A stretch of DNA of 64,000 nt, taken from Leptotrichia wadei. Its GTDB lineage: Bacteria; Fusobacteriota; Fusobacteriia; Fusobacteriales; Leptotrichiaceae. Shown here in pieces: positions 18,682-40,984 of the stretch. The DNA is taken from positions 62,001 through 126,000 of the forward strand of contig NZ_AP019829.2 of the NCBI RefSeq assembly GCF_007990545.2, in the 5' to 3' direction. The translations under genes were made by a program, and so were the position numbers. The notes below the pieces were generated by a model. It had not been told where the DNA came from and ran no database searches. It was given only the letters and a program-made list of their open reading frames with translations. Within the stretch, counting starts at the first letter, position 1. Each line of letters begins with the position of its first letter.

Positions 18682-18721
18682 AAAGGAGAGTGTGGTAGTT
18701 ATTATCACACAATGAAATATG
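18682..18721 (+). promoter_or_regulatory. Split ribosome-binding site of cbiC with an interposed hairpin
   Basis: AAAGGAG lies 30 nt before the ATG, too far for normal initiation. Between them GTGTGGTA and TATCACAC form an 8-bp stem with a 5-nt loop (18690-18710). Once folded, the Shine-Dalgarno is 9 nt from the ATG. No other ribosome site serves cbiC. An ATG 7 nt upstream in another frame stops after six codons. Confidence 0.7.
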
Positions 18722-37765: not shown

Positions 37766-37793
37766 ATTTAAAAAATATAAAAAAGGAGATAAA

Positions 37794-38807
37794 ATGAGAA
37801 CAGCAGTATATTGTGTAAGTAAAAACGGATATGAAACCTGTCTAAAAATACGAAATAATGTTTATAAAAATTTGCATATTTATGTATCACAAAGAGTGGC
37901 AAATATGCTTAATCTTGAAAGTGAAAATGTGGAAAATTTGTTTGTGATAAATGAGCGAGTGCCAATTTTATTAGAAAAAACATTTGATAAATATGATTTA
38001 CATATTTTCGTTGCGGCGATTGGAGCAGTTGTGAGAATTATTGAAGGAAAATTTAAGAGTAAAGATACTGACCCAGCAGTTATAACGATTGATGACCACG
38101 CTAATTTTGTGATTTCATTGCTTTCAGGACATCTTGGAGGGGCAAATGAAGAATGTAAAAAAATTGCGGATGGAATTGGAGCAATCCCAGTAATTACAAC
38201 AGCATCTGATGTTGGTGGAAAAATTGCGGTTGACACATTGTCAAAAAAAATTAAAGCAAAATTAGAAAGTTTGGACGATGCCAAAAGAGTTACTTCGCTT
38301 ATCGTAAATGGAGAAAATGTAAGCATTCATTTGCCAAAAAATATCGTAGAAAGCAATAAAAATTGTGCTGGAGCAATAATTGTCTCAAACAGAAAAAATA
38401 TTGAAATTTCTAAAATTATTCCCAAAAATATTATTCTCGGAATCGGTTGCAAAAGAAATACAGCGAAAGAAAAAATCATCGAAAAAATAAATTATGTAAT
38501 GAAAACTCAAAATTTAGAAATAGACTCGATAAAAAAAGTCGCATCCGCTTGGGTAAAATCTGATGAAGTTGGACTTTTAGAAGCAATGACTGAATTAAAT
38601 ATTCCAATAGAATTTTTTGAAAAAGAAAAAATTTTGGAAGTAGAAGATTTAGTCGAAGAGCGTTCAGAATTTGTAAAAAATCAAATTGGAGTATACGGAG
38701 TTTCTGAGCCTTGTGCCTATCTAGCTTCGAGTAGAAAAGGAAATTTTTTGGTAAAAAAAGTGAAGCTAGAAGGGATTACGATTTCAATTTTTGAGGAGGA
38801 GATGTGA
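37794..38807 (+). CDS. cbiG: Cobalt-precorrin-5A hydrolase
   Basis: Opens the delta-lactone of cobalt-precorrin-5A and releases acetaldehyde, the ring-contraction clean-up step. The N-terminal domain contains DLHIFVAAIGAVVRIIEGKF and FVISLLSGHLGGANEECKKI (LLSGHxGGAN is diagnostic), and the C-terminal domain KNIILGIGCKRNTAKEKI and ASAWVKSDEVGLLEA, with EPCAYLASS near the end. Its 337 residues are normal for CbiG. AAAGGAG precedes the ATG. The next gene, for an HXXEE protein, overlaps or abuts it. Confidence 0.95.
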   Translation: MRTAVYCVSKNGYETCLKIRNNVYKNLHIYVSQRVANMLNLESENVENLFVINERVPILLEKTFDKYDLHIFVAAIGAVVRIIEGKFKSKDTDPAVITIDDHANFVISLLSGHLGGANEECKKIADGIGAIPVITTASDVGGKIAVDTLSKKIKAKLESLDDAKRVTSLIVNGENVSIHLPKNIVESNKNCAGAIIVSNRKNIEISKIIPKNIILGIGCKRNTAKEKIIEKINYVMKTQNLEIDSIKKVASAWVKSDEVGLLEAMTELNIPIEFFEKEKILEVEDLVEERSEFVKNQIGVYGVSEPCAYLASSRKGNFLVKKVKLEGITISIFEEEM

Positions 38808-38809
38808 GA

Positions 38810-39322
38810 ATGGAAATATATAAATTGTCATTTATAGCAATAGTGTTGTTTATGATACACGAATTTGAAGAAATAATTTTTGTAAAAAAATTTATAGAAA
38901 AAAATAAAGTTGTAAAAGATATGAAAAATGAATTATTTGTGAAGAAAAAAGGGAATTATCCATCCACAGAAACAATTTCATTAATGATTGCTGAAGAATT
39001 TATAATTTTATCAACATTACTTTTTATAGCAAGTGAGATTAGTATGTATGAAATGGTACTGTCATTATTTATTGTATATATTGCACATTTAGTACCTCAT
39101 ATGTATGATGCGCTTAGATATAGAAAGTTTTCACCAGGAAGTCGGACTTCTTTTATAATTTTCCCTTTAGGAATTTTAACAATCTGGAATGTTATTTTAA
39201 ATAAAGAAATTAATTTAGTTATTTTAATTTTATGTGTTATAATAATTGGATTTCTGATGATTTTAAATTTGCTATTTTTACATAAAATTAGTAAAAAAAT
39301 TGATAGGTATTTGTGGAAATAA
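38810..39322 (+). CDS. HXXEE-domain membrane protein
   Basis: A 170-residue integral membrane protein. The HXXEE motif is MIHEFEEIIFVKKF at the end of the first helix; a second cluster, IAHLVPHMYDALRYRKFSPG, follows, and there are about four to five helices. The conserved His and Glu residues suggest a metal-dependent membrane enzyme, but no reaction is established. GAGGAGG precedes the ATG by 10 nt; an in-frame GTG two codons earlier is too close to that site. It overlaps the cbiG end region and is probably coupled to it. Confidence 0.8.
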   Translation: MEIYKLSFIAIVLFMIHEFEEIIFVKKFIEKNKVVKDMKNELFVKKKGNYPSTETISLMIAEEFIILSTLLFIASEISMYEMVLSLFIVYIAHLVPHMYDALRYRKFSPGSRTSFIIFPLGILTIWNVILNKEINLVILILCVIIIGFLMILNLLFLHKISKKIDRYLWK

Positions 39323-39381
39323 AAAAAAATTATAAAAATATTTAAAATAAAAAATATATAATCAATATAAGAAATTTAAAG

Positions 39382-39428
39382 AAAGGAGCTTGTATAATGT
39401 AACTATATTATACAAGTAAAATAACATG
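39382..39428 (+). promoter_or_regulatory. Split ribosome-binding site with a perfect 10-bp hairpin
   Basis: AAAGGAG (39382-39388) abuts CTTGTATAAT (39389-39398), which pairs perfectly with ATTATACAAG (39407-39416) around an 8-nt loop. Nine bases later comes the ATG. Linear spacing is 37 nt; folded spacing is 9 nt. It is the strongest of the three split ribosome sites found here. Confidence 0.8.
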
Positions 39429-40862
39429 AAAAAAATATTTCTAATCATAGTCCTTTTTTTAATAAATCTAAATTTAGCCGCCTTAACAATGAAAGAAAAA
39501 ATCCAGCAAGATTTGTCAAAAGCAGGTGTTAAACAAGAAATAATTGATGAAACTGTAAAATTGGATAAGAAATTTGGAGAAGGATTTGTAGAAGAAGATG
39601 GAGATGGGAAAAGGGCAACTGAAAGTAAGGATGAATGGGAAAAACTTTATCAGAAAGATAAAAGAAATTATGTTGCCTTGGAAAGATTGATAGAATCGTA
39701 TTTTGTGACTGGGATACCAAACGATCCTCAGAAGAAAAAATATGTTTCAGAATATTTGAAAATGGATATTCCTGAAGATAGAAAAAATTTCGTTTTGGGA
39801 AAGGACTTCTGGAATTGTTCCAAAAACAAAGATACAAAAAATGAGTATTTTGAAAAAGTTAAAAAGATTAGCAATAATCAGTATTATTTGAAGGGAATAG
39901 ATTTTTTTGAATATATATCAAAAGAAACGGAAAATATAAAAGAAGATGGAAATTCTAAGTTAATGAAACAGAAAATAGATGAAATAACGCAAAAAATGGA
40001 TGAAATTGATAAAATACTTGATAATAAAAATTTGCTAGAAAAATACAGAATTTCTGATGAAGAAGCCTATTCTGATCAATTAACTTTTTTTATGGTTTGT
40101 GGTATCTTAAAAGCGTTTACAGGTGATACTGAAGGAATGGTCAATGATTTTATAAATAAAATTGCGAATAAAAAGATTTCTAAGGAAGTGGCGGAATATA
40201 ATAAAAATAAGGAAATGATGACTGTTATGACTATTCAGATGGTAATGGCTTTGAAAGGATTTTTTGGAGAAATGTCAGAAAAAGAAATTACAAAACTTGA
40301 AAAATTGACAAAAAAACTTCAAGGCACTGAAATGTTTAAAAGGATTATGGAAAATTCGGAAAAGGGTGAAACTATTGAAAACGATAGTTATTTAGAAGAA
40401 AAGAGAAAAAATTTTGAATCACTTTCAGATGATGATCAAATAAAACAAATTGTTAATCAAAAAAAATTTGACTATATCGAAACGAGAATAGACAAGGAGA
40501 AAAAGATTTTTGATTGGACATTTGGATGTAGCGGATTAAATTGTAAACTTATTTTTTTAGGAAAAAATAAAGATTTTGAGAAAAAAATAAAATTAAAAGA
40601 TCTGAAAGAAAAAGAAAAAATTGTTAGAATTCTTATTTTTGGAAAAAAAGAAGAAGATGAAGAAATTTCAGAAGGAGTATTTTTAAGAAGAGGAACTGAC
40701 AGCAAAGACAATAAATTTTATGTTTACGATGATAAAAATGAAGATAAAATATTAACAGTTTTTGCAGCTCAAAATGAAAATTTAGATTTTTTTAAATTTG
40801 TAAATGAAATATTGGGAGAAGATTATAGAAATATTGAAGCGAAATATGGTGGAAGAGATTAA
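39426..40862 (+). CDS. Hypothetical large exported protein
   Basis: A 478-residue protein with a signal peptide (MKKIFLIIVLFLINLNLAAL). The mature region is highly charged and predicted mostly helical (for example MKQKIDEITQKMDEIDKILD). It has CSKNKDTKNE and GCSGLNCKLIF segments with cysteines that could pair in the periplasm. No family recognised. Translation starts from a ribosome site separated from the ATG by a 10-bp hairpin. It stands ahead of two smaller secreted paralogues. Confidence 0.7.
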   Translation: MKKIFLIIVLFLINLNLAALTMKEKIQQDLSKAGVKQEIIDETVKLDKKFGEGFVEEDGDGKRATESKDEWEKLYQKDKRNYVALERLIESYFVTGIPNDPQKKKYVSEYLKMDIPEDRKNFVLGKDFWNCSKNKDTKNEYFEKVKKISNNQYYLKGIDFFEYISKETENIKEDGNSKLMKQKIDEITQKMDEIDKILDNKNLLEKYRISDEEAYSDQLTFFMVCGILKAFTGDTEGMVNDFINKIANKKISKEVAEYNKNKEMMTVMTIQMVMALKGFFGEMSEKEITKLEKLTKKLQGTEMFKRIMENSEKGETIENDSYLEEKRKNFESLSDDDQIKQIVNQKKFDYIETRIDKEKKIFDWTFGCSGLNCKLIFLGKNKDFEKKIKLKDLKEKEKIVRILIFGKKEEDEEISEGVFLRRGTDSKDNKFYVYDDKNEDKILTVFAAQNENLDFFKFVNEILGEDYRNIEAKYGGRD

Positions 40863-40984
40863 AAAATATTAATATTAAAAAATAATTAGATAAAAGAATA
40901 AATGAAAAAAATTATTTTCAATATTTTAAGAAAGTATGTTATAATTTTGACAAAGAAAAATAAAAGATAAAGTGAGGAGAGTTT

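Follow-up and report, generated by a model that had tools for sequence, protein, structure and literature searches.

The literature searchable for this analysis documents hairpins between a Shine–Dalgarno (SD) sequence and its start codon for only a couple of phage genes. In genes 25 and 38 of phage T4, an intervening hairpin cuts an SD–AUG spacing of 22–27 nt to 5–11 nt (PMC3014915). The shortened spacing improves initiation at both genes, and destabilization of the hairpin lowers it (PMC3014915; Nivinskas 1999 and Malys & Nivinskas 2009, cited therein). Dispersed palindromes are known from the REP elements, which lie mostly downstream of genes and whose GTAG-tagged members are tied to RAYTs (PMC3733652). 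As far as summarized in PMC4437187, the natural transformation of Acinetobacter baylyi additionally provides a process, double illegitimate recombination, by which short heterologous segments are integrated with little or no homology (Hulter & Wackernagel 2008).

The locus described here shares features with all three. It lies in the window, a stretch of 64,000 nt of the Leptotrichia wadei genome G000 (C1:62001–126000), and its leader recalls, by anatomy alone, the accommodated or 'split' ribosome binding sites (RBSs) of T4 genes 25 and 38, since an SD–AUG distance of 37 nt in linear sequence becomes 9 nt across the stem. However, the T4 sites, whose function has been measured, belong to two phage genes that are conserved by descent, whereas the Leptotrichia hairpin, known here from its sequence, is a repeat gained at many chromosomal genes, and its layout recurs in a bacterial order. 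The REP and GTAG-tagged palindromes are likewise 20–40 nt long and dispersed, with a conserved 5′ tag (PMC3733652); the Leptotrichia palindrome differs from REPs in that it occurs at SDs only, carries GGAG as its tag, is low in copy number and is most abundant in a genome without a Y1 or Y2 transposase match. With double illegitimate recombination it would have in common that short segments are integrated at little or no homology, as inferred in Leptotrichia from the junctions. The window hairpin is one copy of a small dispersed Leptotrichia palindromic repeat that has been inserted repeatedly into SDs. We propose that it probably spreads by copying through microhomology and is tolerated at SDs as an accommodated site.

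Anatomy of the window hairpin and frequency of its layout

The features of the window to which the text refers are as follows.

39349–39386, forward strand: leader tract with a possible −10 element (TATAAT), found also before murI in G010 (query positions 1–71) and in part at other copies
39382–39388, forward strand: upstream SD AAAGGAG, directly 5′ of the stem, within AAAGAAAGGAG (39378–39388)
39387–39417, forward strand: 31 nt gained in comparison with G005 and G007, whose empty site reads AAAGG/AAAATAATATG
39389–39416, forward strand: 28-nt palindrome CTTGTATAAT-GTAACTAT-ATTATACAAG, 10 perfect base pairs, or 12 if one G–U pair is counted (left arm 39389–39398, 8-nt loop 39399–39406, right arm 39407–39416)
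39417–39425, forward strand: 9-nt spacer TAAAATAAC from the stem to the start codon
39426–39428, forward strand: start codon ATG of the 478-aa open reading frame (ORF)
39426–40862, forward strand: the 478-aa ORF, with a signal-peptide-like N-terminus (secreted-type) and a weak match to DUF4473 (2.1e-5, just under the curated cut-off)
18682–18721, forward strand: cbiC leader AAAGGAG-A-GTGTGGTA-GTTAT-TATCACAC-AATGAAAT-ATG, the second SD–hairpin–ATG arrangement in the window, belonging to family (b)

The first-pass annotation, which described AAAGGAG, a perfect 10-bp stem, an 8-nt loop and 9 nt to the ATG, is exact in these particulars. Its count of three such sites in the window reduces to two, the present one and the cbiC leader, as no third fits the layout. 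Once a G–U pair is allowed, the stem closes on a 4-nt loop at a predicted −10.1 kcal/mol at 37 °C. The 101-nt fold around the hairpin has a z-score of −4.88, and 0 of 200 shuffles were equally stable; together with the spacer shuffles below, this sets the hairpin apart from chance. Folding of positions 39378–39460 in isolation also pairs the SD AAAGAAAGGAG with a stretch of CCTTTTTTT near the beginning of the coding sequence, which speaks against the accommodated reading given below.

The hairpin copy probably arrived with its gene through horizontal exchange, as suggested by the DNA from cbiG to the 478-aa ORF (37786–40888, a cbiG–HXXEE–DUF4473-like block), which is 96.4% identical to that of G012; the CbiC proteins of the same two genomes are ∼20% different. 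The exchange of this block is likely to be recent.

According to the first-pass annotation, a layout no more frequent than in shuffled leaders would refute its reading; the layout withstood this comparison. In 464 kb of G000, AAAGGAG lies 20–54 nt 5′ of a start at 10 sites, 4 of which have a correctly placed stem of at least 7 bp; shuffled spacers lead one to expect 0.13, and 4 were reached in 0 of 1000 shuffles. A wider scan anchored on AGGAG, which covered 864 kb of G000 plus 400 kb from a Fusobacteriaceae genome, returned 8 such stems at 226 sites, against 0–4 for eleven control words, a modest excess which indicates that the layout is rare genome-wide. The clear signal is confined to the strong SD AAAGGAG, and 120 kb of G012 by itself gave no excess of stems of at least 7 bp.

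Two sequence families and a third stem with one layout

The palindrome of the window, CTTGTATAATGTAACTATATTATACAAG, defines family (a) and is present 15 times, in 5 of the 13 Leptotrichia genomes (one copy in G000, two in G004, three each in G008 and G012, and six in G010). A search of 27 genomes from other genera did not find it, and a reversed-pattern control gave 0 matches. Thirteen copies are exact and the other two have one loop change each, with the stem unchanged throughout. All 15 lie 5′ of a start codon in one orientation, in a left-flank context of GAAAGGAGC / GAAAGGAG and with AAGGAGC just before them; a search for variants by half-motif with 2 mismatches retrieved unrelated sites only. 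The carriers are nine non-homologous genes: the window gene, mpk (our label for a small membrane protein starting MPKIIIES...), htpX, speE, murI, a PRA-PH/MazG-like gene adjoining rpmB, prfB, a small acidic protein and one further membrane protein. Names of carriers without a Pfam hit were read from the sequences by eye.

Family (b) has the layout GGAG-GTATGATA..TATCATAC-(7–11 nt)-ATG and occurs at many genes across Fusobacteriales; it is older than the family (a) palindrome and recurs over the whole order. The pattern used for its search, GGAG-N-RYRYGRT..AYCRYRY, was built from the cbiC leader and gave 31 matches in the genus versus 2 for the reversed control. By eye, 29 of the 30 matches inspected have an AAGGAG-type SD before them and, 5–11 nt further on, a start codon (GTG in one case); the exception (G012:9275) probably falls within a coding region. 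Carriers in the genus include genes for an FAD oxidoreductase, a Nudix hydrolase, an RND transporter, CbiC, a HisZ-like protein, a C26 peptidase, and carbonic-anhydrase-like and kinase-like proteins. In other genera of the order the motif precedes by 7–10 nt the starts of genes read as sufC, rsmH, coaBC, an ABC permease and an old-yellow-enzyme homologue. Loci L341–L347, from both Fusobacteriaceae and Leptotrichiaceae, show GGAG-N-GTATGATA..TATCATAC between SD and start at unrelated genes.

The cbiC leader of G000, AAAGGAG-A-GTGTGGTA-gttat-TATCACAC-AATGAAATATG, has the same layout in G002 and G003, whereas G007 and G011, whose CbiC proteins are 95–96% identical, have a plain AAGGAGAATAAATTATG and no hairpin; thus, the cbiC hairpin also appears to have been inserted after the SD. 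In the Nudix leader, 98% of the pair cells of the helix are kept, with one fully compensatory double change; its covariation is not above that of shuffles, six sequences being too few for this measure.

A third, unrelated stem, CTACTAAA/TTTAGTAG, precedes rpmB in 13/13 Leptotrichia genomes, where ribosomal-protein autoregulation is a possible role. The leader of this L28 gene (L153:8164 and L148, both on the reverse strand, and orthologues) runs from SD through hairpin to start, with an extra GGTG/GGG after the stem. At L125:11041–11080 (reverse strand), a hairpin flanked by two SDs, AAGGAGG-TTTTGAC-ccctt-GTCAAAG-AGGAGGAAAATATG, precedes a 553-aa ORF.

The idea of a shared architecture without shared sequence is therefore correct only in part, since the window stem is one of 15 near-identical copies and the cbiC stem belongs to another sequence-related family. 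What stands is that two families have one layout, which supports repeated insertion as well as selection acting on the layout. Selection for the sequence itself would be expected if a protein bound the hairpin, or bound the DNA palindrome as an operator, to control a regulon. The 15 copies, with zero stem changes and only two loop changes, are in keeping with such a site, as are the TATAAT-like sequence on which the palindrome is built and the retention of the consensus GTATGATA/TATCATAC by family (b) across Fusobacteriales. However, the carriers of family (a) vary between genomes and have no common pathway, sister-species orthologues do without the palindrome, and a DNA operator need not sit exactly between SD and AUG; we regard a regulatory site as rather improbable.

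Filled and empty sites and the spread of the palindrome

Empty orthologues are available for speE (G004), htpX (G005, G007 and G009), murI (G008), the PRA-PH gene (G008), mpk (G000) and the window gene (G005 and G007). Relative to close empty orthologues, the gain is exactly 31 nt inside the SD, AAAGG/AGCTTG...CAAGG/A, which leaves SD-like sequence on both sides. The window gene shows this gain when compared with G005 and G007, and the suggestion that palindromes were repeatedly inserted after ribosome sites thus holds for this instance. The gain is equally clean in speE, where the empty AAAGAAAGGAAAAACTATGG of G004 corresponds to AAAGAAAGG-AGCTTGTATAATCTAACTATATTATACAAGG-AAAAACTATGG in G012. 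The right junction at AAGGA is the same in htpX (G010 versus G007), murI and the PRA-PH gene (both G010 versus G008), mpk (G012 and G004 versus G000) and the window gene (G000, G004, G008 and G012 versus G005 and G007).

The left side of family (a) insertions varies by locus. In the PRA-PH gene, 8 recipient bases between a left match AAAAAATTTAAA and AAGGA have been replaced, and in mpk the replaced stretch is longer, running from TTCAATA on (left match TCAATA). With the longest shared leader as a 72-nt query, the matches start at positions 1, 1, 1, 1, 1, 4, 4, 8, 19, 19, 20, 20, 22, 29 and 30 and always end at 68–72. The 5′ extent of the copied segment thus appears to vary, as seen for the leader tract at 39349–39386; the left tract may in part be native SD context, which holds for part of the PRA-PH case.

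A constant 3′ end, a graded 5′ end and replaced DNA point to short-segment microhomology copying rather than to a cut-and-paste process with two fixed ends. Short leader segments would be copied from one SD region to another, with the SD AAGGA as the right microhomology and a variable AT-rich match as the left one, by template switching or double illegitimate recombination. The targeting of SDs follows from such copying, while insertions within genes would be purged by selection; in G000, 56% of the occurrences of AAAGAAAGGA and 19% of those of AAGGA are SD-positioned.

The same palindrome might instead be mobilized as a REP/IS200-like element by a Y1 (TnpA/RAYT) transposase, which would insert the hairpin 3′ of AAGGA with GGAG as the foot tetranucleotide. 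A short dispersed palindrome with a fixed 5′ tetranucleotide is indeed what non-autonomous REP/RAYT or IS200–IS605 elements present, insertion is strand- and site-specific, the element ends in a copy of its target, and Y1 transposases were found in 10 of the 13 genomes. Nevertheless, G010, with six copies the richest of all, has no Y1 or Y2 match, G002 and G003 possess Y1 yet have zero copies, and only the right end is constant, the left boundaries being variable and recipient DNA replaced. This makes a Y1 element unlikely, and short-tract copying between leaders fits better than a transposase, as judged from the junctions; a lost or unrecognized transposase is a possible mover.

Other origins were also considered. 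A 35-nt look-alike palindrome with the same arms forms the end of an IS91-like element, but only in the copies of G004 and G008 (L047 and L058); an IS91-family end was ruled out because the arms are unpaired in other copies (L230 and L232), the common part being the promoter-like string TTGTATAAT. A search of IMG/VR for a phage origin gave no exact match, and no similar plasmid was found.

A proposed role of the hairpin in translation initiation

In nearly all cases, the stem begins 0–2 nt after GGAG and ends 4–11 nt before the start. In the mRNA, the hairpin would fold directly against the SD, possibly stacking on the SD/anti-SD helix, so that the SD–AUG distance across the stem stays at 7–14 nt, and this would explain why the insertion is tolerated. 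An accommodated RBS, in which the hairpin shortens the SD–AUG distance, is accordingly the most likely function, as judged from spacing and conservation: the layout is kept in the window gene of four genomes and, with other stems, in all 13 rpmB leaders and in those of the Nudix, RND and FAD oxidoreductase genes.

Most family (a) insertions leave AAGGA on their 3′ side as a spare SD, at normal spacing to the ATG. It is conceivable, if doubtful, that the insertion is neutral, the hairpin doing nothing and being merely tolerated while the regenerated AAGGA serves as the real SD. Against this, G000, G008 and G012 have lost the spare SD at the window gene, as has G010 at htpX, all with an intact upstream SD and stem, and in family (b) the Nudix, RND and cbiC leaders lack a second SD altogether. 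In the window gene, the base after CAAG is T in G000, G008 and G012 and the original G in G004; the insertion therefore ends in ACAAGG in G004 but in ACAAGT in the window, and the downstream SD-like AAGGA is gone. With the spare SD mutated to CAAGT, the window gene would be expected to rely for its translation on the upstream SD together with the folded hairpin.

The first-pass annotation also raised a thermosensor, for which the location in the initiation region and the presence of htpX among the carriers would speak. An RNA thermometer has its SD paired in the cold and freed within the physiological range; here, the SD lies outside the stem, which is still predicted at −8.7 kcal/mol at 42 °C and −6.6 kcal/mol at 50 °C. 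With a hairpin too stable and an SD too exposed, such a role is highly improbable. The covariance models of Rfam 15 gave no match at the window site or in related leaders, and a search for an intrinsic terminator found none.

The layout thus recurs in a bacterial order and comprises two sequence families, with natural before/after pairs in sister species. These pairs make two ideas directly testable, namely that a hairpin can stand in for SD–AUG spacing and that short leader segments spread without a transposase. More broadly, and tentatively, Fusobacteriales may use hairpin-accommodated RBSs as a recurrent, selected design, and their leaders may form a pool of transferable parts, in which an SD-carrying palindrome would be copied from RBS to RBS through the SD consensus without a dedicated transposase.
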